Origin: Fluviicola sp.
GTDB taxonomy: Bacteria > Bacteroidota > Bacteroidia > Flavobacteriales_D > Crocinitomicaceae
Direction: 5' to 3'
DNA: 64,000 nt
Assembly: GCA_029866325.1 (NCBI GenBank)
Contig: JARWZO010000004.1
Span: 62,001-126,000, forward strand
Numbering within the stretch: the stretch's first letter is position 1; each line of letters begins with the position of its first letter. The translations under genes and the position numbers were made by a program. Of this stretch, positions 34,769 through 46,450 are shown in pieces. The notes under the pieces are model-generated. The model saw only the letters and a list, made by a program, of their open reading frames with translations, made no database searches and had not been told where the DNA came from.

Positions 34769-35311
34769 GTGAAAAAACTCAACTATTCTGAAGAGGAATT
34801 GGTGTTATTGTTACAACAAAAAGACCTGAAGGCATTCAGTTATCTATACGATAACTACGCTCCGGGTTTGTTGGGGGTAATCATGCGTTTGTTGCGCAAT
34901 CAAGCTGTTTCCGAAGATGTGTTGCAAACGGTTTTCGTTAAGATTTGGAAAGGAATGGAAGGATACGATGCTTCCAGAGGACGGCTCTATACCTGGATGA
35001 TCAATATCTCAATCAATTCAGCCATTGATTACTCAAAATCCAAACAAGCAAAAAAAGAAACAAATACCTCGGGAATAGAGTCCAATTTCGGAGTAGTAGA
35101 CCGGACAAACTTCACCACATTCAACACGGATGTGATTGGTTTGAAAGATCAGGTGGATACGCTTAAAGACGAATACAAAATCTTGATCGAATATATTTAT
35201 TATCAAGGTCTCACGCACGATGAAGCTGCTAAAGAACTTGACTTGCCTTTGGGAACCGTTAAAACACGCGTGCGTTCTGCTGTTGCTCAGTTGCGCGAAT
35301 TAATGAAATGA
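34769..35311 (+). CDS. ECF-type RNA polymerase sigma factor
   Basis: This 180-aa group-4 sigma factor has region 2 (YLYDNYAPGLLGVIMRLL to RLYTWMINISINSAIDY, about residues 25-90), which binds the -10 and core, and region 4 (YYQGLTHDEAAKELDLPLGT, then VKTRVRSAVAQLREL, about 145-178), which binds the -35. The start is GTG at 34769; a stop lies directly upstream in frame. The neighbour two genes on (36341) looks like its anti-sigma factor, with lepB between. porX is about 2.2 kb upstream. PorX is known in P. gingivalis to act with an ECF factor, SigP, but orthology to SigP is unproven. Confidence 0.9.
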   Translation: MKKLNYSEEELVLLLQQKDLKAFSYLYDNYAPGLLGVIMRLLRNQAVSEDVLQTVFVKIWKGMEGYDASRGRLYTWMINISINSAIDYSKSKQAKKETNTSGIESNFGVVDRTNFTTFNTDVIGLKDQVDTLKDEYKILIEYIYYQGLTHDEAAKELDLPLGTVKTRVRSAVAQLRELMK

Positions 35312-35348: not shown

Positions 35349-36191
35349 ATGAAATTGTTTAAAAGACGAAGTGAAACGAAAAGAACACCACTTAACCGCT
35401 TCGCACGCATCGTTTTCCTTAGCTTTTTGGCTTGGTTGATTCTCCGATCATGTGTAGTACAAATTTATAAAGTACCTACAGGTTCTATGAACAACACTTT
35501 CAAAGAAGGTGATTACATAGTAGTGAACAAATTGGTTTATGGAGCCAGAATTCCCATGACACCGCTTTCGCTTCCTTTCGGGCATACCTATTTAGACTGG
35601 ATCACTTTCTCCTATCACCGACTTCCCGGATTTTCTTCCATACAACGCAATGATGTTCTGGTGTTCAATTATCCGGCAGAAAAAGACCTTCCGATCGATC
35701 ACCGGAAAGAATATGTAAAGCGCTGTGTGGGTTTGGCAGGTGATACCATTTCGATCAGAAAAGGAATCGTGTATGTAAACGGTCGAAAACGCAAGGAAAC
35801 TTCAATGGCAATACCTATCTATGCCAATAATTACAAACGAACCGCCACAGATAGTTTGTTTTACAGTCCGGCTTATTTCCCTCATTCAGGTAGTGTGAAA
35901 TGGAATTCAGATCGTTTCGGACCACTGTTCGTGCCGAAAAAAGGAGCGCGTATTCGATTGACACATGAACAGTTACTGATTTATCGTGAAGTCATCGAGT
36001 CTTATGAACATAAAGAAATTAAAGAGCTAAATGAACTGTTCTTTATAAACGGGAAACGTCAAAAATACTACACGTTTGAAATGAATTATTATTTTGTGTT
36101 GGGTGACAACAGAGCCAATTCGCTCGATTCGCGTTTTTGGGGATTTGTACCCGAAGATCACATCATCGGAAAAGTGGTGTATTCATTTTAA
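35349..36191 (+). CDS. lepB: Signal peptidase I
   Basis: This 280-aa inner-membrane serine protease cleaves Sec signal peptides. A membrane anchor spans about residues 20-38. The catalytic Ser46 lies in VPTGSMNNT and the Lys124 general base in KEYVKRCVGLAGD. The downstream boxes GLAGDTISI and GDNRANSLDSRFWG are intact. A region of about 80 residues between the Lys box and the GDNR box (about 145-240) is inserted relative to the E. coli core, as in some Bacteroidota LepB. It lies 37 bp after the ECF sigma gene. Confidence 0.94.
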   Translation: MKLFKRRSETKRTPLNRFARIVFLSFLAWLILRSCVVQIYKVPTGSMNNTFKEGDYIVVNKLVYGARIPMTPLSLPFGHTYLDWITFSYHRLPGFSSIQRNDVLVFNYPAEKDLPIDHRKEYVKRCVGLAGDTISIRKGIVYVNGRKRKETSMAIPIYANNYKRTATDSLFYSPAYFPHSGSVKWNSDRFGPLFVPKKGARIRLTHEQLLIYREVIESYEHKEIKELNELFFINGKRQKYYTFEMNYYFVLGDNRANSLDSRFWGFVPEDHIIGKVVYSF

Positions 36192-36340: not shown

Positions 36341-36949
36341 ATGGACATTAACGCATATTTGGATTCAGGCATTGTGCAGTTGTATATCTTGGGATATGCT
36401 TCTGACGATGAGTGTCGTGAATTTGAATCGTTGATGCGCATTCATCCTGAAATTGCTGCAGCATTTGAGTCGCATCAGAAAGCATTGGAAGAAGTTATTG
36501 AAGAGAATCAGGTAAATCCTCATCCGAATCTGAAACCCCTTGTTTTAGCCACGTTCGATTATATTTCTCGTTTGGAAAATGGTGAAGAACAAAGTTTTCC
36601 ACCTGTTTTGAACGAACATTCCACCATCGAAGATTTTCAATTGTGGATAGAGCGCGATGATATGGTAGCTCCGGAAGATTTTGAAGAAGTTCACGCGAAA
36701 ATCATTGCCGCTACTCCCGATATGACCTGCGCCATGGTGTGGATCAAAAACATGGCTCCGGAAGAAATTCATACAGATGAATACGAGAAATTCCTAATTC
36801 TGGAAGGTTCATGTACAATCGTTGTCGGTTCAGAAGAAAACAAATTGGTGGCAGGCGATTATTTTGCCATTCCGCTTTATGAAGATCACAAAGTTATTGT
36901 TACGTCCGAAGAACCCTGTGTGGTGATTTTGCAGCGAATTGCAGCGTAA
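36341..36949 (+). CDS. Cupin-domain anti-sigma factor (ChrR-like)
   Basis: This 202-aa soluble protein has two parts. Residues 1-55 (LDSGIVQLYILGYASDDECR) resemble the N-terminal module of Bacteroidota and RskA-type anti-sigma factors. Residues 100-200 form a cupin with EEIHTDEYEKFLILEG (motif 1, His and Glu) and GDYFAIPLYEDHKVIV (motif 2, His). This mirrors ChrR, where an anti-sigma part is fused to a metal-binding cupin sensor. The classic HxxxCxxC zinc motif of ChrR is not seen. With the ECF sigma factor at 34769 it probably forms a sensing pair; the signal is unknown. The absence of a membrane segment means it would sense inside the cell. Confidence 0.75.
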   Translation: MDINAYLDSGIVQLYILGYASDDECREFESLMRIHPEIAAAFESHQKALEEVIEENQVNPHPNLKPLVLATFDYISRLENGEEQSFPPVLNEHSTIEDFQLWIERDDMVAPEDFEEVHAKIIAATPDMTCAMVWIKNMAPEEIHTDEYEKFLILEGSCTIVVGSEENKLVAGDYFAIPLYEDHKVIVTSEEPCVVILQRIAA

Positions 36950-37399: not shown

Positions 37400-39706
37400 T
37401 TAAAACAAATACCCAACTGATAATTTCACCGCAAACGGTGTACCCGGTGTATAGTGAATTTCACTGACCGACTGCGTTTCATTCTGCATTCTGCTTTCGG
37501 TATCAAATTGGGCTTCATTCCAAGCTACGTTGAGCATGTTCTCAACGTTTAATCCGATTTTGAAATGTTGTGCCTGATAATTGACACCAGCGTCAAAGAT
37601 TAAATAACCCAAAGCAATTACTGTGTTTGCTTCATTCGCAGCACGATCTGCCATGTAACGGTAACGCACAGATGCATTGATTTTATTGAGTTTGTAGGTC
37701 AAACCACCGGTGGAAGTCAACGTTGGCGCGAGCGGAATGTGGTAATCACTTTCATTGCGTTGGCCAAACAATGATTCAGTTAAGTAATTTTCCGACATAT
37801 TAAAATCGACATCTGCAATTAATGACGGAATGATTTGCCAGCGTGCACTTACGTCAACTCCGATTCTTCTGCTCGAACCTTTGTTTTCGGTAGTTCCTGC
37901 ATCGCCGACATATACCAATTCGTTTTCGAGGTTCAAGGTCCAAAGCGCAGCTGAAATCACCACTTTTTTCCCAAAATGCAACAAAGTTCCTACTTCACCA
38001 CCTACCGAAAGCGGCAATTGATGGGCGTTTTGTTCCTGAACCGTTGATCGCGCGTCGTTGGAATGGAAACCGTGACCATAGTTCATGAAAAACTGATATC
38101 GCGAAGACGGCGAGTAGATGAGGTTTGCTTTCGGGCTAAACGCCGTTTGGTAGTTGAATCCGGAGTAATTCTGGCGAGTTGTATCGCTCGGAATGTGATC
38201 TTCAACATTGAATGTCAGGTAATCGTATCGACCACCCAATTCAAGGCGCAGCTTGTCACTAAAGCGAATGACTTCGTTGAAATAAAAGGCTGTAGCGACT
38301 TCGTTGATGTCGGCCAACGCGGTAATGCCCAAGCGCTGTCTTTTTATGGTACGCCATAATTCATTGTTGATATCATCGGCTCTAAACGTAGCGCCAACTG
38401 TTAAGCGATTGTTGAGTGAACCGAGTTTGTGTGCCACGGAATAACTGCTGTTAATTCCTGAAGTTGTGCGTACATCACCTTGTTCAATCTGATCACCATT
38501 GATGGAATCTTCCAGGAAAAAAGTGAAGTTGGAGTACAATCTGAATTTGTAAGCAGAAGTATAAACTTGGGTCTCAAAATCTCCTTTTTTGAGTTTTGCT
38601 TTGTAGATCAGGTTGGCGTTCATGCGTGAAGTGGTACCACCTTCCGTAGGATCAATGCTTCCGAAACGGGTGATCAATCCTGCTTTTACCGCCCGATCAG
38701 GAATCTGACCCGAAGCATCCCAGGAGGAACTAAAGCCGGAGAAACTGAGACTCAATGAGCTGGTTGCATTGATCGCGAATACCGTTTTTGAAAACAGGTT
38801 GTAACGATTAAAATGCTGATTTTGCTCAAAATAGCTTCTGTTATTAGTAACATCTACGGCAAAATAGGAGTGAACACGATTGTTCTCAATCGGCAATTCG
38901 TACATACCTACAAAACGTTTGGAGGTGATGTTTTTCTGTGTTGGAACCGCAGTCGTTTCGATAAGAAACAAGTTGTTGGTGAGTGAATCGAGCGTATTAA
39001 AACGAACCGAAGCTGCAGTAGCAAAATTCCCGTCTTTCGCCTGATACGGACCTTTTGCCAAATCCATTCCTTTTACCGTTTCAGGAATGAGAAAGTGCAG
39101 ATCTTCGTAGCCTTGTCCATGACCGTGACTTGGCATATTCACCGGAATTCCGTCCACAAATGAAGCCACATCCGTTCCGTGATCGCAGTCGAAACCGCGT
39201 ACAAAAATTTGCTCGGCTTTACCACCACCGGCATGCTGGGCAATGAACAATCCGGGAACCAAACGCAACATATCTTGTGCTGAGTTTTTCGGTCGGTATT
39301 CAAAATCCAACTGACTCAGATATTTCGACGAAGCTGCAGAGGTTGGTCTGTCGGCTTTGATAGTCACTTCATAAAGTGTTTCACTTGTTTGAGTTGATTG
39401 AAAATTGATGGAAACGGTTTTCACTTCTCCCGCAGCAAGCGTATAATTTAGGCTCAGTGTATCTCTGAAAGCTTCCGCAAGGCGAATCGTGTAATTCCCG
39501 GCAACGAGTTCCGAAAAGCGAAAGCAACCGTTTGAATCGGTAGTTGTCAACTTGTCGGTTGTAGCATTGTAACAACGCACCTGTAGTGTAGATTGGTATT
39601 CTGATTTTGTGCGGATTACGCAACCGTTAATAGCTCCTGTTTGGGCAAACAGCAGATTAACCGTGAGTAAAAAACAGGCGCACGTAAGTATGTGTATGTA
39701 TTTCAT
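37400..39706 (-). CDS. TonB-dependent outer-membrane receptor with carboxypeptidase-like N-domain
   Basis: This 768-aa receptor is an outer-membrane importer energised by TonB. The start MKYIHILTC at 39706 opens a signal peptide ending at LLFAQ (about residue 22). A carboxypeptidase-regulatory-like domain spans about 25-105. The plug (about 120-230) reads LVPGLFIAQHAGGGKAEQ and FVRGFDCDHGTD, then PVNMPSHGHGQGYED; this histidine-rich part is unusual and suggests a metal or metal complex. The beta-barrel ends in Phe after LSVGYL. It is the last gene of the DUF4331-DUF4331-TPR-HupE-lipoprotein run, which makes metal or metallo-cofactor uptake a plausible guess. The substrate is not known. Confidence 0.9.
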   Translation of the reverse strand: MKYIHILTCACFLLTVNLLFAQTGAINGCVIRTKSEYQSTLQVRCYNATTDKLTTTDSNGCFRFSELVAGNYTIRLAEAFRDTLSLNYTLAAGEVKTVSINFQSTQTSETLYEVTIKADRPTSAASSKYLSQLDFEYRPKNSAQDMLRLVPGLFIAQHAGGGKAEQIFVRGFDCDHGTDVASFVDGIPVNMPSHGHGQGYEDLHFLIPETVKGMDLAKGPYQAKDGNFATAASVRFNTLDSLTNNLFLIETTAVPTQKNITSKRFVGMYELPIENNRVHSYFAVDVTNNRSYFEQNQHFNRYNLFSKTVFAINATSSLSLSFSGFSSSWDASGQIPDRAVKAGLITRFGSIDPTEGGTTSRMNANLIYKAKLKKGDFETQVYTSAYKFRLYSNFTFFLEDSINGDQIEQGDVRTTSGINSSYSVAHKLGSLNNRLTVGATFRADDINNELWRTIKRQRLGITALADINEVATAFYFNEVIRFSDKLRLELGGRYDYLTFNVEDHIPSDTTRQNYSGFNYQTAFSPKANLIYSPSSRYQFFMNYGHGFHSNDARSTVQEQNAHQLPLSVGGEVGTLLHFGKKVVISAALWTLNLENELVYVGDAGTTENKGSSRRIGVDVSARWQIIPSLIADVDFNMSENYLTESLFGQRNESDYHIPLAPTLTSTGGLTYKLNKINASVRYRYMADRAANEANTVIALGYLIFDAGVNYQAQHFKIGLNVENMLNVAWNEAQFDTESRMQNETQSVSEIHYTPGTPFAVKLSVGYLF

Positions 39707-39883
39707 ATAGCGTCTTGATAAATAAAATGACAAAGCGAATTGAGAGTGGAATCAACAATTTGTTCTAAGCGATACAGTTCACTTATCCGTGATGTGTAGA
39801 CAAGAACGTATTTACTAAAACCGGCTTTGAAAAAAGAAACAGTATCGATCCAATGAAAATTACATCACTGTTTCGTCTTTTAT

Positions 39884-40282
39884 TTACAAGACTTGGGGAG
39901 GAGGGTAGTTGGGTGAAACAGATCGGCCATTAAAGAAAGCCTGACTATGAACAGCAATCTTTACCGACGTTTTGTGATAGAAAATGGGGTATTTTGAAAG
40001 TTCAAATAGGATCTCAGGGGCGCAGTGCAAATCCATTTTCAGATTTGTTTCATTGACCGGAGCTTCCGAATCACTGTTTTTTGATTGTGCGTCTTTCGCA
40101 ACTTCAGTGTGCAAGTGGTATTTTCCATTTTCGAAATGCACAGTTGCCACGTGGTCAAATTCATTGAAGGTATGTGCCACAAAATCGCTCGCAAAAGGAA
40201 GAATAGGTTTCAACGGCATACAGGAATAAACAGCTACCAAAAGCAGAATTCCGAAGTATCGTATGTGTTGAATTAGTTTCAT
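39884..40282 (-). CDS. Small His-containing lipoprotein candidate
   Basis: This 132-aa protein has a hydrophobic N-terminus and a possible lipobox (VAVYSC, Cys21). The rest has seven His residues in clusters (VHFENGKYHLHTEV, LHCAPE, FYHKTSVKIAVHS) and a Pro-rich end. It lies between the HupE/UreJ-like gene (48 bp) and the TonB-dependent receptor (177 bp). Small His/Cys proteins often sit beside metal-related TonB receptors in Bacteroidota, and I suspect this is one, but I cannot name a family. A metal-binding role is an inference from composition and context. Confidence 0.6.
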   Translation of the reverse strand: MKLIQHIRYFGILLLVAVYSCMPLKPILPFASDFVAHTFNEFDHVATVHFENGKYHLHTEVAKDAQSKNSDSEAPVNETNLKMDLHCAPEILFELSKYPIFYHKTSVKIAVHSQAFFNGRSVSPNYPPPQVL

Positions 40283-40330
40283 CTTTTTTATCTACGAAGT
40301 TTTTCCTGTTATGGATTGGCAGAAGTGAAA

Positions 40331-41032
40331 TTAACCTGCAAAAAAGGTGCGTTCGATGGTCCAATACAGCGCGATTACTGCAATCACTGCCGAAATGGGG
40401 ATAACGATGCGTTTTTTGTACCACGGTTTTTTACTGAACCACTTTCCTACAAGAAGCCATGCAATCAAGATCACGGTTATTTGCCCGAGTTCGACTCCAA
40501 CGTTAAATGTAATGAGCGAAGTCGCAAATTTATCTTCGGGCATGCCTAGGTCTTTCAATACGCTTGCGAAACCCATTCCGTGAATTAACCCAAAAGCAGC
40601 TACCAAGAACATCCGTGTAGGTTTGAGTTCGCTCACAATCATGTTTTCTACTGCTACAAACACAATAGACAAGGCAATGATGGGTTCAATGATGTGACTT
40701 GGCGGAGAAATAACTCCAAAAATGCACAAGCCAAGTGTGATGGAATGGGCAACGGTAAAAGCGAGTGATTGCCAAAGTACCGTTTTTAATTTCGGGCTCA
40801 GGAAAAACAAACACAACACAAACAAAATGTGGTCGAGTCCCAAGGGAAGAATGTGCGTGTAACCCAATTTCAGGTACAGCGCGGCTACATCTTTTGTAGG
40901 AAGGTTCTTTAAATCCATCGCGTGAGCCGAAGCAAGTTGCGGAATGCACAACAAGCAACAGATTACTACAAGCAGGCGCAATTGTCGCTGAAGCGACGGG
41001 TTATTTTTTAAAGCGGTAATAATTGGCTTCAT
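40331..41032 (-). CDS. HupE/UreJ-family membrane protein
   Basis: This 233-aa inner-membrane protein has a signal peptide or first helix ending at PQLASAHA (about residue 37), then about six membrane helices. The family motifs are HILPLGLDHILFVLCLFFL, SLAFTVAHSITLGL and AFGLIHGMGFASVL, all with membrane-embedded His or Asp. HupE and UreJ proteins are linked to nickel (or cobalt) transport for hydrogenase and urease; this second subtype is widespread without those enzymes. Neither urease nor hydrogenase is in the window, so the metal is open. Its ATG lies 32 nt inside the TPR gene, implying coupled translation. Confidence 0.85.
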   Translation of the reverse strand: MKPIITALKNNPSLQRQLRLLVVICCLLCIPQLASAHAMDLKNLPTKDVAALYLKLGYTHILPLGLDHILFVLCLFFLSPKLKTVLWQSLAFTVAHSITLGLCIFGVISPPSHIIEPIIALSIVFVAVENMIVSELKPTRMFLVAAFGLIHGMGFASVLKDLGMPEDKFATSLITFNVGVELGQITVILIAWLLVGKWFSKKPWYKKRIVIPISAVIAVIALYWTIERTFFAG

Positions 41033-42335
41033 TTTTCAGCTTTATGTCCGAAAGTACAGGGTTATTTTTGAACGCGAGTTCCAACAATTTTTTCCCTTCC
41101 TGTTGTTTTCCGGCTTTGAATTTAATCAATCCGGCTCTGCAAAGAAGATTAGGATTCTTTGAACCTGTTCGCAATGCTTTTGAAATAAACACGTTGGCTT
41201 TGGTGTAGTTTTTTTGTTTGTAATACACCCAAGCCACCGTTTCACACACATCAATGTTTTTTGGGCGGCGGTTGTATTCCAACAAGGCGTGTTTCAATGC
41301 TTTTTCGGTATTGTTGATTTTCAGGTAAGCATACGCCAATTCCCGGTCGGCATAATGTCCGTGACCGCTCACACTTTCGTCATCACCGGAAAGTGGACTG
41401 AGCATCTCAATTACCCGATACGCCGATTTATAACCGTTTTTCGGATCACCGTTCAAACGATACAAATCCGTTAATTCATCCGAAAACGAATATTCAATGA
41501 TGGCTTTCTCGGCTTTTCGGTAGTATGAAATGGCTTTTTTGTAATTGCCGTTTACTTTTTCTTTTTTACCCAAACCAGCCAAAGCAAAGGCGTAATCCGG
41601 GCGTTCTTTTAATGCGGTTTGGTATTGAAATTCGGCTGAATCGAGGTGACCTTTCATTTCGTAAAGATGAGCAAGAATCATGCGCGACCAGGCGGTTTCT
41701 TCCAATCCGGGAAATCCGGCATCTACTGCCAATTTTGAAGCAAAGATGGCTCCATCCAGATCACCGTGAATTTCACGCAGGTAAGAAACCCGTGAATACG
41801 AACGAATATCCGGACGAATATTGATCATTTTGTCGGCCATTTTCACAGCTTGTTTGTATTGACCCAATTCTACGTAAGAATCGCACATTAAGCCATAAAT
41901 AAAGGCGTTGTTCGGATTGATTGGAAGCGCTGTTTTAGCAACTTTGAGTGCTTCCGAAAAATGATGTTGTGAGAGCAAAACGGTAGCTTTACAACAAAGC
42001 GCGTCGAAGTTTTCAGGTTCGTTGGCTATGACATCATCCAGCAAAACAAGCGCCGCTGCATCATAATAGGCATGATCTCCGGTAATTCTGGCTTCCTGAA
42101 TATAACCTTTCGACAAGTTTAGTTTTGCTGTATAGTTTTCCGGATTCAGCTCAATTTCTGCTAATAAACTTTCAATCACTTTTTTGGTTTCAACCCATTC
42201 TCCACCTAAGGCAATGGAACCTGTTCTGAGTTTTAGTGTTGCTGCCTTTTTTTCGGGCGATTTGGAAAAAAGAAAGATACAAACCAGCAAGATTCCTGTG
42301 AAACCAATTAAAATAGGGTAAAGGTATTTTCGCAT
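41001..42335 (-). CDS. TPR-repeat protein, membrane-anchored
   Basis: This 444-aa protein has an N-terminal hydrophobic anchor (about residues 5-24) and then about nine tetratricopeptide repeats. Examples are AALVLLDDVIANEPENFDALC, AFIYGLMCDSYVELGQYKQA and YAFALAGLGKKEKVNGNYKK, each with the W/L-G-Y-A-P spacing. A short SGDDESVSGHGHYADRE segment holds His and Asp residues. TPR domains serve as scaffolds, so it may organise partners of this cluster in the periplasm. It overlaps the HupE-like gene by 32 nt and follows the second DUF4331 gene by 71 bp. No enzymatic domain is visible. Confidence 0.85.
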   Translation of the reverse strand: MRKYLYPILIGFTGILLVCIFLFSKSPEKKAATLKLRTGSIALGGEWVETKKVIESLLAEIELNPENYTAKLNLSKGYIQEARITGDHAYYDAAALVLLDDVIANEPENFDALCCKATVLLSQHHFSEALKVAKTALPINPNNAFIYGLMCDSYVELGQYKQAVKMADKMINIRPDIRSYSRVSYLREIHGDLDGAIFASKLAVDAGFPGLEETAWSRMILAHLYEMKGHLDSAEFQYQTALKERPDYAFALAGLGKKEKVNGNYKKAISYYRKAEKAIIEYSFSDELTDLYRLNGDPKNGYKSAYRVIEMLSPLSGDDESVSGHGHYADRELAYAYLKINNTEKALKHALLEYNRRPKNIDVCETVAWVYYKQKNYTKANVFISKALRTGSKNPNLLCRAGLIKFKAGKQQEGKKLLELAFKNNPVLSDIKLKNEANYYRFKK

Positions 42336-42406
42336 AAATCGGGTTTAAAAAAAGTTGAGCGCACCAAGGTACACCCAACTTTTCACGTGTGAACTATTAA
42401 ATTAAA

Positions 42407-44494
42407 TTATTTGATCATGATTCTCAAGCCTTGAACGCGTTTGCCGTTTGCCGACAAGGAAGCGATGTAAGTGCCCGGTTTCACATTTTCAGGTTTCCAA
42501 ACCACTTCGTAAGTTCCGGCGGTTTTCTTTCCATCAATCACAGTAGCAATGCGCTTACCGTTCATGTCATAAACTGTCAGATTTACATTAGCGTTTTGCG
42601 CAACACGGTATTTGAATGTTGTGCTTTCTGTAAACGGATTCGGGTAGTTTTGAACCATACTCAATTCCGGAGCACTCAAATTCAATGCTGTTTCAAACAA
42701 TCCTGATGTTGAAAGTACAGTGGCACCACATGGTCCGAATCCACTCCAAGGCATTTGAACATACGGGAATGTAGCTCTGAACGTTGTATCGTTTTCTTCA
42801 ATTCCTGTTGTATAACTCAAAACATCCAACAAATCGGTTGTTACAGGGTTTGGTCCACCTACCGTGTAATCGTCATACCATAAACCGATAGCGGCCAATA
42901 CAACTCCACCTACGGCTTGCAATTCGATACGTGTTACATCATCTTCCAAACGACGACCGTTCGGGAATCCATCCATGTTTGGAATCCATTGAAGGTTGGC
43001 ATTTGAATTATAAGTAGGATCTGTTAAACCAAGAACTGCAGCTTGAACCAATCCCAAAGAACTGAATTGCGGGTCATTACGTGGAGTAACAGGAACAGCC
43101 ATGTTCAAACGAAGCATGTCACCGAATGTCGGCAAGAAGTTGTTGATGAACGGTTTTCCGACAGCCAATGGATTTCCGTTTTTACCTGTTGCCAATTGGT
43201 AAGGCGCAAGGTTTGGAACTCCAGTGTAGAAAATCGGCAATAAATCGGCAGAACGCGGTTCTCCTTGACGTAACAAGTAGTTACCGAACAAGTTGGTATC
43301 CAATGCAGTTCCTGCTCCACCATTGGTAGCGCGTATTGGCCATAAACCGTCGTTTGTGTTACCGAAGTCGAATGTTTGTAAACTGTTACGTTGAATACGC
43401 AAAGCAGACAATCCCGGAACGGCAGCACCGAACAATGAGTTATCCATGTATAAACCTAACTCAGGATTACAGAAATACGCTTCCATTGCCGGATCTTCGT
43501 TGTATGGAGTCAATGAATTCCATTTGTCTTTGTCACCGATTGGAATAACCGCCTCGTTTGTCAATGGCATACCGATACGAGAAACCTGTACGAATGAACC
43601 TGTATAAGATTCTGTTCCGTCGCCGTTTAATGTACGGATTTGTTGACGGCTAGCAGAAGCCCAAACACCAATGATGTAATCTGAATCTAGAATGTTAACC
43701 GCTGCAGTAACCGGTTGTCCGTTTTTCTGCAAGGTGCTGATCGGAATTTTCAACGCGATTGAATGGATGTTTTTACAAGCGACACCATCTTCAGGCGCAT
43801 CAATTCCAGAACCACCGGCACGTGTTGCACCAAGGTCGAAAATACCACCTAAGTCTACGAAGAACGGATCGTCGGTTGGCCCGCAGAATACGGTTTCACC
43901 GCCACCGCCTGTAGCATTGGTAATAGCTGAAGTCATCAACGATTCATAATTGGCAGCACCCAATCCGGCAGCTCCACTGATGGAACGCGGTCCGATATTC
44001 GGAGGAGGAACAATACCACTGCTTACGATAGTTGTAAAGGGTCCACCATTGATGCTTTTTTCAGCAACATAAGTGGTTTTAAGGTTTTCTGCTCCTAAAC
44101 GAATGTTGAAGAATGTTGTAGGGTCTTCATTCGTTTTAGAGAAGGTAAAACGATACGTGATATCATCACCGGTTGTTCCATCGTTTTCGATGTGAATTTC
44201 GTAGCGTACGTTTTCACCGAAAGAAGCGTAATTAGGGCCACCTTGCGGTAATTGCAACGGAACAAAATTCGCGATGATGGTAACCGTATTGGTATCATCA
44301 GGACTTCTAAAGGCATACAAATCGGTGTTGTCTGCCAAGGGATCGTTTGCAATCAACGGCGCCTCTCTGTGACTGGAAGCCTCGACCGTCGAATTTTGCG
44401 AATCCCATACACTCAACGTAGTTGCAATAGCTGCAATACCGGCAAGCGTAAGAATTTTGGTTGTTGTTATTTTTTTCATAGTCGTAAATTTCAT
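42407..44494 (-). CDS. DUF4331 secreted protein with T9SS sorting tail
   Basis: This 695-aa protein starts at 44494 (alternative Met at 44479) with a signal peptide. The DUF4331 domain opens with the conserved SSHREAPLIANDPLADNTD and runs to about residue 600. The last about 85 residues (MVQNYPNPFTESTTFKYRV to GTYIASLSANG) are a type A T9SS sorting domain, so it is exported to the surface or released. It is a tandem paralogue of the 590-aa protein just upstream, with stretches of near identity. DUF4331 has no established activity that I know of. Its place before TPR, HupE-like and TonB-receptor genes suggests a surface partner for uptake. Confidence 0.88.
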   Translation of the reverse strand: MKFTTMKKITTTKILTLAGIAAIATTLSVWDSQNSTVEASSHREAPLIANDPLADNTDLYAFRSPDDTNTVTIIANFVPLQLPQGGPNYASFGENVRYEIHIENDGTTGDDITYRFTFSKTNEDPTTFFNIRLGAENLKTTYVAEKSINGGPFTTIVSSGIVPPPNIGPRSISGAAGLGAANYESLMTSAITNATGGGGETVFCGPTDDPFFVDLGGIFDLGATRAGGSGIDAPEDGVACKNIHSIALKIPISTLQKNGQPVTAAVNILDSDYIIGVWASASRQQIRTLNGDGTESYTGSFVQVSRIGMPLTNEAVIPIGDKDKWNSLTPYNEDPAMEAYFCNPELGLYMDNSLFGAAVPGLSALRIQRNSLQTFDFGNTNDGLWPIRATNGGAGTALDTNLFGNYLLRQGEPRSADLLPIFYTGVPNLAPYQLATGKNGNPLAVGKPFINNFLPTFGDMLRLNMAVPVTPRNDPQFSSLGLVQAAVLGLTDPTYNSNANLQWIPNMDGFPNGRRLEDDVTRIELQAVGGVVLAAIGLWYDDYTVGGPNPVTTDLLDVLSYTTGIEENDTTFRATFPYVQMPWSGFGPCGATVLSTSGLFETALNLSAPELSMVQNYPNPFTESTTFKYRVAQNANVNLTVYDMNGKRIATVIDGKKTAGTYEVVWKPENVKPGTYIASLSANGKRVQGLRIMIK

Positions 44495-44513
44495 TTTCAA
44501 ATTTCTATCACAA

Positions 44514-46286
44514 TTATTGTCCGGTATGGTTTGCATAACCACTCCAAGGCTGCGCCACATAAGGGAATGTACTGGTGAATGCTACATCATTGCTTTCTAC
44601 ACCGGTTGTGTAACCGAGTACAGCCAAAAGATTTGGCGATAACGGAGATGAACCTATGTTACGGTCGTCATACCACAAACCGATAGCTGCTAAAACAACA
44701 CCACCAACTGCTTGCAATTCGATGCGTGTTACATCATCTTCCAAACGACGTCCGTTCGGGAAACCGTCCATATTCGGAATCCACTGAAGCGATGCATCTG
44801 TGTTGTAAGTAGGATTTGTTAATCCTAAAACGGCAGCGTGAACCAATCCCAATGAATTGAAATCAGGGTGATTTCTTGGTGTAACAGGTACAGCCATGTT
44901 CAAGCGAAGCATGTCTCCGAAAAGCGGTAAGAAATTGTTGATGAACGGTTTTCCGGCAGTGAGTGGGTTTCCGTCTGTTTTACCTGTAGCCAATTGGTAA
45001 GGTACAAGGTTAGGAACTCCGGTGTGGAAAATAGGCAATAAATCTACTGAACGCGGTTTGTTGTCACGTAACAAGTAGTTTCCAAAAAGAGCAGCATCCA
45101 AAGCTGTTCCATTCAATGCAGCATTTCCTGCTAATACAAATAAACCGTCGTTTCCGTTAGAGAAATCTACGTTTCCAAGTACCGTTTGTGATGCTTTTTG
45201 AACACGTAATGCAGAGAATGCGGGTACTGCTCCACCAAATTGAGCATCGTCCATATACAAAGCCAATTCAGGGTTACAGAAGAAATCTTCCATAGCCGCG
45301 TCTTCGTTGTAAGGAGTCAATGAGTTCCATTTGTCTTTTGAACCGATTGGAATAACCGCTTCATTGGTCAATGGCATACCAATACGAGAAACTTGTACGT
45401 AAGAACCGGCATCAGTTGGTGCTCCACCTGAATTGCTCAATGTACGCGTTGCAGGACGGCTAGCCGATGCCCAGATACCAACGATAAAATCGGAATCAAG
45501 AATGTCTGATGCTGCAGTTACGCTCAAACCGTCTTTTTGCAAGGTGCTGATTGGAATTTTTAAAGCGATTGAATGGATGTTTTTGTTTCCAACTCCATCG
45601 GCTGCACCTGCACCTGCACGTGTTTGACCAAGGTCGAAAATACCACCCAAATCTACAAAGAACGGATCGTCGGCTGAACCACAGAATACGGTTTCACCTC
45701 CACCACCTGTTGCGTTGGTTACCGCTGCAGTCATCAAAGCATTGTAACTAGCTGCACCTAAACCAACCGTAGGATCGCTGATTGAACGTGGTCCGATGTT
45801 TGGCGGAGGAACAACTCCACCTGTAACGATTTGCGTGAAAGCTCCACCATTGATGCTTTTTTCTGCTACGTAAGTTGTTTTTAAGTTTTGTTGACCCAAA
45901 CGGATGTTGAAAAACGTAGTTGGATCTTGGTTTACTTTCGAGAATGTAAAACGGTAGGTAATATCATCACCTGCTGTTCCGTCGTTTTCAATATGAATCT
46001 CGTAGCGAATGTTTTCGCCGAAAGACGCATAGTTGGGTCCACCTTGCGGTAGTTGCAACGGCACATAGTTAGCGATAATGGTGACCGTATTTGTGTCATC
46101 AGGACTTCTAAACGCGTATAAGTCTGTGTTGTCGGCCAACGGATCGTTTGCGATCAGAGGCGCTTCTCTGTGGCTTGATGCTTCCACGGGCGAGTTTTGC
46201 GAATCCCAAACACCCAGTGTAATAGCGGTAGCTATCACCCCTGTTGTGGTCAAGATAAAGTTCTTCGTTTTCATCATTGTTTCCAT
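44514..46286 (-). CDS. DUF4331 secreted protein without sorting tail
   Basis: This 590-aa protein is the first gene of the cluster. It has a signal peptide, then the DUF4331 domain starting SSHREAPLIANDPLADNTDL. It shares long stretches with its downstream paralogue (for example RYEIHIENDGT, ATGGGGETVFCG, NGRRLEDDVTRIELQAVGG). It stops right after AQPWSGYANHTGQ, about where the paralogue begins a linker to its T9SS tail, so it should remain periplasmic unless exported otherwise. A second possible Met lies at 46274. The 19-bp gap to the next paralogue indicates a recent tandem duplication within one operon. Confidence 0.87.
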   Translation of the reverse strand: METMMKTKNFILTTTGVIATAITLGVWDSQNSPVEASSHREAPLIANDPLADNTDLYAFRSPDDTNTVTIIANYVPLQLPQGGPNYASFGENIRYEIHIENDGTAGDDITYRFTFSKVNQDPTTFFNIRLGQQNLKTTYVAEKSINGGAFTQIVTGGVVPPPNIGPRSISDPTVGLGAASYNALMTAAVTNATGGGGETVFCGSADDPFFVDLGGIFDLGQTRAGAGAADGVGNKNIHSIALKIPISTLQKDGLSVTAASDILDSDFIVGIWASASRPATRTLSNSGGAPTDAGSYVQVSRIGMPLTNEAVIPIGSKDKWNSLTPYNEDAAMEDFFCNPELALYMDDAQFGGAVPAFSALRVQKASQTVLGNVDFSNGNDGLFVLAGNAALNGTALDAALFGNYLLRDNKPRSVDLLPIFHTGVPNLVPYQLATGKTDGNPLTAGKPFINNFLPLFGDMLRLNMAVPVTPRNHPDFNSLGLVHAAVLGLTNPTYNTDASLQWIPNMDGFPNGRRLEDDVTRIELQAVGGVVLAAIGLWYDDRNIGSSPLSPNLLAVLGYTTGVESNDVAFTSTFPYVAQPWSGYANHTGQ

Positions 46287-46450
46287 AAATTAGTAAATCT
46301 TCAGTTTGCTGTTGCCCAATTTGTTTATTCCACTGCCCTCATCTACGAGAAAAAAATGGATATGGATTTGTAAAGTGAATTTTTGTTAAAGGAACGGCGT
46401 TTTTAATTCATTACGCTTTATGGCAAAATCATCATTTGATTAAGGAAAAT

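Follow-up and report, generated by a model that had tools for sequence, protein, structure and literature searches.

A conserved gene module around DUF4331 in Fluviicola sp. and other bacteria, with ECF-type promoters and a possible nickel-type metal route

We analysed a cluster of six genes around two proteins of DUF4331, a family of unassigned function, in a stretch of 64,000 nucleotides (nt) from Fluviicola sp., contig JARWZO010000004.1. This whole stretch is called the window below, and all positions follow its numbering. Computation supports the conservation of the module, its extracytoplasmic function (ECF)-type promoter, the family of its receptor, the conserved N-termini of its DUF4331 proteins and their type IX secretion system (T9SS) sorting tails. 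Our reading, to which we give a probability of about 0.5, is that the module makes a surface metalloprotein on demand, with its own nickel-type supply route, under SigK/RskA-type ECF control.

In this scheme, a SigK/RskA-type ECF sigma factor would transcribe two units, the first promoter serving DUF4331-A, DUF4331-B, the TPR gene and HupE, and the second serving the small His-cluster protein and the TonB-dependent receptor. The receptor would import a transition metal into the periplasm, most likely Ni(II), with Co or Cu as possibilities. The small His-cluster protein and the HupE/UreJ_2 permease would handle the metal there, and the TPR protein would act as assembly partner. DUF4331 would be the secreted end product, holding the metal at its mature N-terminus, Ser-Ser-His; one copy would remain periplasmic and the T9SS-tailed copy would reach the surface. 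We infer here the acting sigma factor, the identity of the metal, its binding by DUF4331, the direction of its flow and a function in stress.

Gene content and conservation of the module

The open reading frame (ORF) check found six genes between 37400 and 46286, all on the minus strand, at the places given in an initial annotation of this DNA. DUF4331-A (44514..46286) is a secreted protein with a signal peptide followed by SSHREAP, and DUF4331-B (42407..44560) carries a T9SS type A sorting tail. They are followed by a TPR protein (41001..42335), with matches to TPR families and an N-terminal membrane anchor judged by eye, a HupE/UreJ_2 permease (40331..41032), a small His-cluster protein (39884..40282) and a TonB-dependent receptor (37400..39733) with matches to the TonB plug and barrel models and an HGTD/HGQGY plug motif. 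Pfam and NCBIfam confirmed the family labels previously given to five of the genes (both DUF4331 genes and the TPR, HupE/UreJ-type and TonB receptor genes). Both DUF4331 proteins matched with E about 1e-131 (PF14224, 438 bits for DUF4331-A), and the permease matched PF13795 with 159 bits against a cut-off of 24.5 (E-value 9.8e-47). The sorting-tail model TIGR04183 matched DUF4331-B with 41.4 bits (cut-off 23) and gave no match on DUF4331-A, in agreement with the earlier claim of one T9SS-tailed copy.

The spacing of 19-177 bp with one 32-nt overlap, between the TPR and HupE ORFs, was reproduced with two choices of start codon. The longest ORF of DUF4331-B overlaps DUF4331-A by 47 nt; its true start is probably at 44494, 19 nt after DUF4331-A. 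For the receptor, the first internal Met (39706) leaves by arithmetic a gap of 177 nt.

DUF4331 was present in 35 of 247 sampled genomes, as the full-length protein in 17 and as a shorter, divergent type in 18. Clustering of the ORFs of 99 loci (20 genome stretches, 78 named loci and the window) gave eight families occurring in at least 14 loci, the next commonest family being found in five. These were DUF4331 (98 loci), TPR (74), TonB receptor (47), HupE (39), ECF sigma factor (28), RskA-like anti-sigma factor with or without cupin domain (25), a signal-peptidase-like protein (17) and the small His-cluster protein (14); the clustered DUF4331 family contains a few stray ORFs joined via the sorting tail. 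Since the simple ORF caller missed genes, such as HupE in genome G166, we preferred the tblastn counts, made over the window and the other loci with at least 7 kb downstream of DUF4331 (67 loci, the short-type loci L048-L051 being excluded). Near DUF4331 a TPR gene was found in 60 of them, a TonB receptor gene in 42, HupE in 37, an ECF gene in 21 (within 9 kb) and the small-protein gene in 14, and the best TPR, HupE, TonB and small-protein matches were all on the strand of DUF4331. Many of the loci are close relatives; the association of the cluster genes is far beyond chance. At two short-flank loci outside the 67 (L120 and L122), the TonB match was on the opposite strand.

The module was also found on plasmids of other phyla. 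Thirty-two plasmid records contained DUF4331; 17 hand-picked ones were fetched, 15 of them annotated. At 10 of these 15 loci DUF4331 is followed, after one to three intervening genes, by a HupE/UreJ or nickel-transporter gene: seven in Pseudomonadota (three Pseudoalteromonas, Marinobacter, two Lichenicola and a comamonad) and three, of Streptomyces type, in Actinomycetota. Three of the unnamed middle genes were tested, and a TPR match was above the cut-off in two and below it in one; at the Streptomyces-type locus tested, the middle gene is TPR and the permease is of the NicO family. In Miltoncostaea the locus has the order DUF4331-TPR, and in Adhaeribacter DUF4331-TPR comes with a divergent, split TonB receptor gene. 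The initial annotation had held that a neighbourhood confined to close relatives would count against its idea; the neighbourhood is conserved well past them, in Bacteroidota loci and, as DUF4331-TPR-permease, in Pseudomonadota and Actinomycetota.

Several observations were made on variants of these loci. On the Paracoccus, Jannaschia and Sulfitobacter plasmids (L130, L138, L139), DUF4331 and a small gene adjoin type II secretion genes, which suggests that DUF4331 is a type II secretion cargo in Rhodobacterales. On the plasmid of Hymenobacter sp. GOD-10R (L237, 1835-12672), genes for cytochrome c peroxidase, DUF3500, HupE/UreJ and a helix-turn-helix protein are followed by a receptor of the same TonB family as in the window and by two further DUF3500 genes; this seems to be a sibling module with DUF3500 in the place of DUF4331. 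Annotated DUF4394 genes are found near DUF4331 on the Streptomyces-type plasmids L178 and L180. In genome G208, TPR, an unnamed gene, HupE and an 813-aa ORF stand in a row (L173, C5:694000-713900) about 1 Mb from DUF4331, so that the module can split. The short-type DUF4331 of G029, G053, G057, G068, G103 and G130, and likewise of G142, G154, G202, G218 and G234, matches the Pfam model in pieces, and one such piecewise match holds internal stop codons, as if the domain were split across consecutive ORFs.

HupE_UreJ_2 was found in 70 of the 247 genomes, mostly distant from DUF4331; in 7 of the 17 full-length-DUF4331 genomes the two are no more than about 3 kb apart, as read from coordinates. 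We considered whether the copies away from DUF4331 belong to the same module and rejected this, the 19 copies examined (20 loci fetched) being divergent paralogues. A family resembling M1 peptidases by eye was present at 10 of the 20 loci. At seven (L155, L156, L160, L162, L166, L171 and L174) the HupE/UreJ_2 paralogue is near an M1-peptidase-like gene and a small secreted protein, by eye probably DUF6702; a passage of PMC12537917 likewise has M1 peptidases adjoining DUF6702.

ECF-type promoters and SigK/RskA-type control

An ECF-type promoter, AAATCC-N16-CGTA, was located before DUF4331-A on the minus strand (46341..46369), with its CGTA ending 57 nt before the ATG. A second one stands before the small-protein gene on the same strand (40293..40317), 10 nt before the ATG and within a gap of 48 nt. 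The motif AATC(C/T)-N13..18-CGTA was present in 43 of 93 DUF4331 upstream regions, compared to a mean of 0.7 of 93, and at most 3, in 30 dinucleotide shuffles. Before unlabelled other genes of the same loci it occurred in 5 of 686 cases, and before labelled genes in 7/18 (cupin anti-sigma), 10/72 (TPR), 2/16 (LepB-like), 2/29 (ECF) and 3/46 (TonB). Restricted to N16/17 and counted from the SSHREAP codon, it was found in 50 of 90 DUF4331 loci, with 0 for the reversed pattern and 3 on the opposite strand. A spacing of 16 was observed in 38 loci and one of 17 in 13; the remaining spacings between 8 and 25 add up to 9. These counts were made on the same DUF4331 loci from which the motif was derived, and the scans before the small-protein and RskA_C genes and the small-protein and plasmid controls are separate tests.

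The small-protein gene is preceded by the motif in 10 of 14 loci including the window (9 of 13 relatives), with 0 of 13 in both the reversed and the opposite-strand controls. In six relatives and in the window, exactly 10 nt separate the end of the promoter from the start codon, a distance suggestive of leaderless transcripts. On the plasmids, the looser form ATC(C/T)-N16/17-CG(T/A)(A/T) was found at 7 of the 15 loci (three Pseudoalteromonas, both Lichenicola, Adhaeribacter and Paracoccus) and at 0 in both controls. ECF and anti-sigma genes lie directly 5' of the module in all three Pseudoalteromonas loci fetched, and the one anti-sigma factor tested there is RskA_C.

In the same way, we scanned the 30 RskA_C loci with the best scores among the 247 genomes, many of them from one family, for AATC(C/T)-N16/17-CGT(A/T). 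The motif was upstream in 22 of the 30, compared to 1 reversed and 3 opposite-strand occurrences; three of the 22 loci (own genome, G033 and G072) had already been seen in earlier motif scans. It lies 868-1123 nt before RskA_C in 18 loci, where the ECF gene's own promoter would be expected, and closer in 4. RskA_C was present in 31 of the 35 genomes with DUF4331 and in 71 of the 212 without it; in 12 of the 35 the two are less than 5 kb apart, read from coordinates. Because the promoters of DUF4331 and of the small gene are near-identical to the element of the ECF/RskA genes, they point to a SigK/RskA-type regulon, and RskA-partnered, SigK-like ECF factors most likely transcribe the module, as judged from the promoter sequences. 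It would then appear to be turned on by a stress-response sigma factor and not by a lack of metal.

Three genes on the plus strand adjoin the six-gene block, between 34769 and 36949. The first codes for an ECF sigma factor (34769..35311) 44% identical to the RskA-partnered ECF factor of the same genome. The second (35349..36191) is a putative signal-peptidase-I-like gene, of a family that neighbours DUF4331 at 17 of the 99 loci, window included. The third (36341..36949) codes for an anti-sigma factor whose N-terminal part is RskA-like, with 38% identity to the genome's own RskA across the first 69 aa, and which has a cupin domain (PF07883) instead of RskA_C; the genome's own RskA_C is on contig C18. 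On that contig (L197, 5054-7003) a TspO gene is followed by genes for an ECF sigma factor and an RskA-type anti-sigma factor, and the motif falls within the sigma gene and precedes the anti-sigma gene; it likewise precedes the anti-sigma genes of L056, L059, L061, L067 and L068.

This type of control, together with the TspO gene beside the ECF/RskA pair and a fasciclin gene, of a kind that is a SigK target in mycobacteria, preceded by the motif at one locus, would also fit DUF4331 acting against envelope or photo-oxidative stress without any direct part in metal handling, the receptor and the permease being just co-regulated by the same ECF factor; passages of PMC9861118 report that light induces the Mycobacterium kansasii mpt83/mpt70 homologues and tspO. 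The joint occurrence of DUF4331, TPR and permease in three phyla is, however, beyond what co-regulation alone requires, and the permeases that we aligned or inspected have a His where the mature protein presumably begins. We hold this explanation to be unlikely.

Genome-wide, the motif has 15 sites in the own genome, compared to 5 for the reversed pattern, and 38 in ten other genomes, compared to 14. Many of these sites are inside ORFs, so single targets are leads, such as DUF4394 in G190 (L229, C5:59531) and a ferritin-like protein in G033, both named by eye. In the own genome, a run of genes on contig C6 (L198, 1-5170) starts with a fatty acid desaturase gene preceded by the motif, continued by DUF1475, DUF1295, CMAS methyltransferase and amine oxidase genes. 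We take this run to resemble the gene set of the mycobacterial SigK locus. A SigK-like lipid regulon was rejected as support for the assignment: the motif was upstream in 2 of 30 desaturase loci, that of the own genome and a doubtful one.

Mature N-termini, receptor family and metal

SSHREAP was found, without selection of sequences, in 145 of 146 complete DUF4331-family ORFs of more than 400 aa, and in all 15 annotated plasmid DUF4331 proteins. The lone family ORF lacking it starts quite differently and was probably clustered by its sorting tail. The unselected count replaced two alignments (A1 and A5) whose rows had been chosen for SSHREAP, A1 being cut there, so that invariance in them is by construction. 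The residue before SSH is Ala in 140, Gly in 8 and Ser in 7 of 155 sequences, and five short-type DUF4331 proteins of these loci have ADH at the SSH position. Signal-peptide cleavage would expose Ser-Ser-His, and a cut before the His is also compatible with the sequences. A free X-X-His N-terminus is a classical Cu(II)/Ni(II) site. The permease has a His at its own presumed signal-peptide cut: H37 is invariant in 32 of 32 aligned sequences (A2), and the eight plasmid permeases inspected have AH there. The SSH end of DUF4331 and the permease His could thus be candidate Ni or Cu ligands.

Among second or last DUF4331 copies, a T9SS tail (E <= 0.001) was detected in 65 of the 68 scanned, of 77 eligible. 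The model of DUF4331-A had a mean predicted local distance difference test score (pLDDT) of 83 and a predicted template modelling score (pTM) of 0.89, residues 1-10 reaching 57, with a beta-rich N-terminal half and a mostly helical C-terminal half. Foldseek gave no match in the PDB at E <= 0.001, and a second comparison returned antibody-type immunoglobulin rows with Z <= 6.7, a generic sandwich that we did not use as evidence. For the window permease, in which the PF13795 match begins at residue 53 with no separate N-terminal domain, the AlphaFold2 model had a mean pLDDT of 90; the best Z of its fold comparison, 9.1, is below the level for helical proteins and was likewise not used.

The small protein matched no Pfam or NCBIfam model. 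Across 14 aligned sequences (A3), H37, H44, H49, H56 and H58 are invariant, five His within 22 residues. The His clusters of the "His-rich lipoprotein" first proposed here are therefore conserved; the lipobox Cys varies among the same 14 sequences, and we replaced the lipoprotein label by that of a small His-cluster protein.

The receptor belongs to a family that is linked, by its sequence relatives, to nickel and cobalt genes in Pseudomonadota. Relatives were found on 65 plasmids, and in 9 of 13 hand-picked contexts nickel or cobalt genes lie within a few kb: NikR in five (Afipia, Methylomagnum, Paraburkholderia, a comamonad and Polymorphobacter), HoxN-type permeases in four (Cupriavidus, Bradyrhizobium, Paraburkholderia and Novosphingobium), hydrogenase genes in Afipia and Bradyrhizobium, and cobalamin genes in Methylorubrum and Novosphingobium. 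A further context, that of Hymenobacter GOD-10R, has HupE/UreJ and DUF3500 genes. The Afipia receptor, whose gene adjoins NikR and hyp genes, aligns with that of the window over 640 aa at 31% identity. The HGTD plug motif noticed at the outset is present and belongs to an HGTD/HGQGY motif shared by 9 of the 10 receptor sequences compared, window included; the receptors of four of the 13 contexts were outside the comparison.

Common nickel users are mostly absent from the full-length-DUF4331 genomes. NikR was found in 0 of the 17, [NiFe]-hydrogenase above the cut-off in 1 (with a sub-threshold match in another) and urease above the cut-off in 3, leaving 13 of 17 with neither enzyme above the cut-off. 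Sod_Ni gave no match in the 17 genomes and none in any control genome either, so that its absence is not shown. The whole genome of the window had no match to urease, [NiFe]-hydrogenase or NikR, and the earlier remark that no urease or hydrogenase is nearby extends to the genome as a whole. We accordingly rejected HupE as a urease or hydrogenase helper in this genome, and the receptor is called nickel-type by its relatives alone.

The same receptor family, the T9SS tail of DUF4331-B and passages of PMC12537917, which describe HupE/UreJ_2 proteins as nickel permeases and "anglerases" as feeding a permease, could be read as an import route, in which DUF4331 at the surface would capture the metal as a scavenger and hand it to the TonB receptor and HupE, to serve cytoplasmic users. 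The scarcity of hydrogenase and urease, the absence of NikR from the 17 genomes and the ECF type of the promoter argue against this, as does the core kept at three Streptomyces-type loci: these retain DUF4331, TPR and a nickel-type permease in bacteria with no outer membrane, so DUF4331 may itself be a metal consumer. A scavenging role is possible and, to us, rather doubtful. We prefer that DUF4331 uses the metal because the common nickel users are mostly absent, because the core persists in Actinomycetota, which have no outer membrane, and because the promoter belongs to no known metal-limitation type; the three reasons are not decisive. The initial annotation had proposed a full import route for a metal, with DUF4331 as ligand handler. 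This proposal is supported in part: a metal route fits, given the receptor relatives beside nickel and cobalt genes and the metal-binding assays on two HupE/UreJ-2 N-terminal domains in PMC12537917, and the neighbourhood is conserved; the promoter found is of ECF/RskA type, no search aimed at a metal-responsive operator having been made, and nothing supports a handover from DUF4331 to the receptor.

The metal could also flow outwards, with HupE/NicO exporting a surplus that DUF4331 would sequester outside. The third gene of the Streptomyces-type locus tested is of the NicO family, which includes the exporter RcnA. Moreover, a HupE/UreJ-domain gene is given in a passage of PMC5557971 as the most up-regulated one in Sphingobium ba1 at high nickel. 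The TonB receptor near DUF4331 in 42 of the 67 loci is, in contrast, an importer, and metal exporters do not recur: the one family resembling resistance-nodulation-division (RND) pumps by eye is found in 5 of the 99 loci, the window's own copy being outside the six-gene block. We hold export to be improbable.

Several results weigh against DUF4331 as the metal-holding product of an ECF-controlled module. The SSH end could be structural, and the window-type HupE lacks the large N-terminal domain of published anglerases. The strict promoter was not found in 40 of the 90 DUF4331 loci; a looser form reached 58 of 90 but also gave 2 reversed and 6 opposite-strand matches, and the motif is absent upstream of the window's own ECF, signal-peptidase-like and cupin genes. 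The figures for the co-occurrence of RskA_C with DUF4331 ignore relatedness. The motif of the lipid operon is not kept in relatives, which limits the likeness to the mycobacterial SigK regulon. As for the metal, its assignment comes from Pseudomonadota receptors just 28-33% identical to that of the window; 3 of the 13 receptor contexts have no nickel or cobalt gene, one of these with the plug motif, and the Methylorubrum receptor, among the nine nickel/cobalt contexts, is without this motif. Finally, DUF4331 stands without TPR, HupE and TonB in 7 of the 67 loci, and 3 of the 15 plasmid loci, in Rhodobacterales, pair it with a type II secretion cluster instead.

Comparison with known systems

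DUF4331 is now placed in one conserved module, with three handles on it: the ECF promoter, the conservation of the mature N-terminus, and a receptor family that points to a likely metal. DUF4331 and PF14224 were not mentioned in the literature searched, limited to openly licensed PMC text; our searches found no description there of the module, of its control by an ECF factor or of the DUF4331 N-terminus, and the parts are of known kinds. Should DUF4331 hold nickel, organisms that mostly lack the common nickel enzymes would have a secreted nickel protein. A tentative extension, which we consider rather unlikely, is that DUF4331 is a new class of secreted Ni (or Cu) metalloenzyme, with an SSH hook freed by loss of the signal peptide and a dedicated supply line of receptor, His carrier, His-tipped permease and TPR chaperone, made under RskA-ECF control as an extracellular defence in three phyla. 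If true, this would supply a missing output, and a hint to the signal, for the SigK/RskA family.

Nickel superoxide dismutase carries its metal on an N-terminal nickel hook. A metal on a freshly exposed N-terminus, as proposed for DUF4331, and a peptidase gene nearby recall this enzyme; the sequence of DUF4331 differs from it.

In the passages of PMC7509140 and PMC9861118, the SigK/RskA system consists of an ECF factor with an RskA-type anti-sigma factor and an autoregulated promoter, and an mpt83-sigK-rskA cassette with a SigK site is reported in Gram-negatives. The module shares with it the ECF factor, the RskA-type anti-sigma factor and the autoregulated promoter. It differs in its targets, here DUF4331, TPR, HupE and the TonB receptor, and in that Bacteroidota do not keep a desaturase/CMAS-type operon as a target. 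The inducing signal of SigK is stated as unknown in a passage of PMC7509140, and the DUF4331 operons are a place to seek it in harmless hosts.

TonB-dependent nickel receptors, Bll6948 among several named, appear in passages of PMC11247825. The window receptor shares its plug motif with the NikR-linked Afipia receptor; it differs in the ECF-type promoter and in a genome with no NikR, hydrogenase or urease match.

The closest parallel to the permease is with the HupE/UreJ-2 anglerases of PMC12537917, passages of which group anglerases, DUF4198 and DUF6702 as signal-strapping metalloproteins. There the N-terminal domains of two HupE/UreJ-2 proteins were assayed for metal binding, and Cu stabilised one domain with an N-terminal His, Ni doing so less strongly. 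The window permease is likewise a HupE/UreJ_2 protein with a His at the presumed cut, and the neighbours of DUF4198 reportedly include TonB receptors and NikR, comparable to the module. These passages describe neither the module nor its control by an ECF factor. In DUF4331 the His is residue 3 and not residue 1, and the window HupE begins without an N-terminal domain, whereas that of Pseudoalteromonas has about 175 residues before PF13795.

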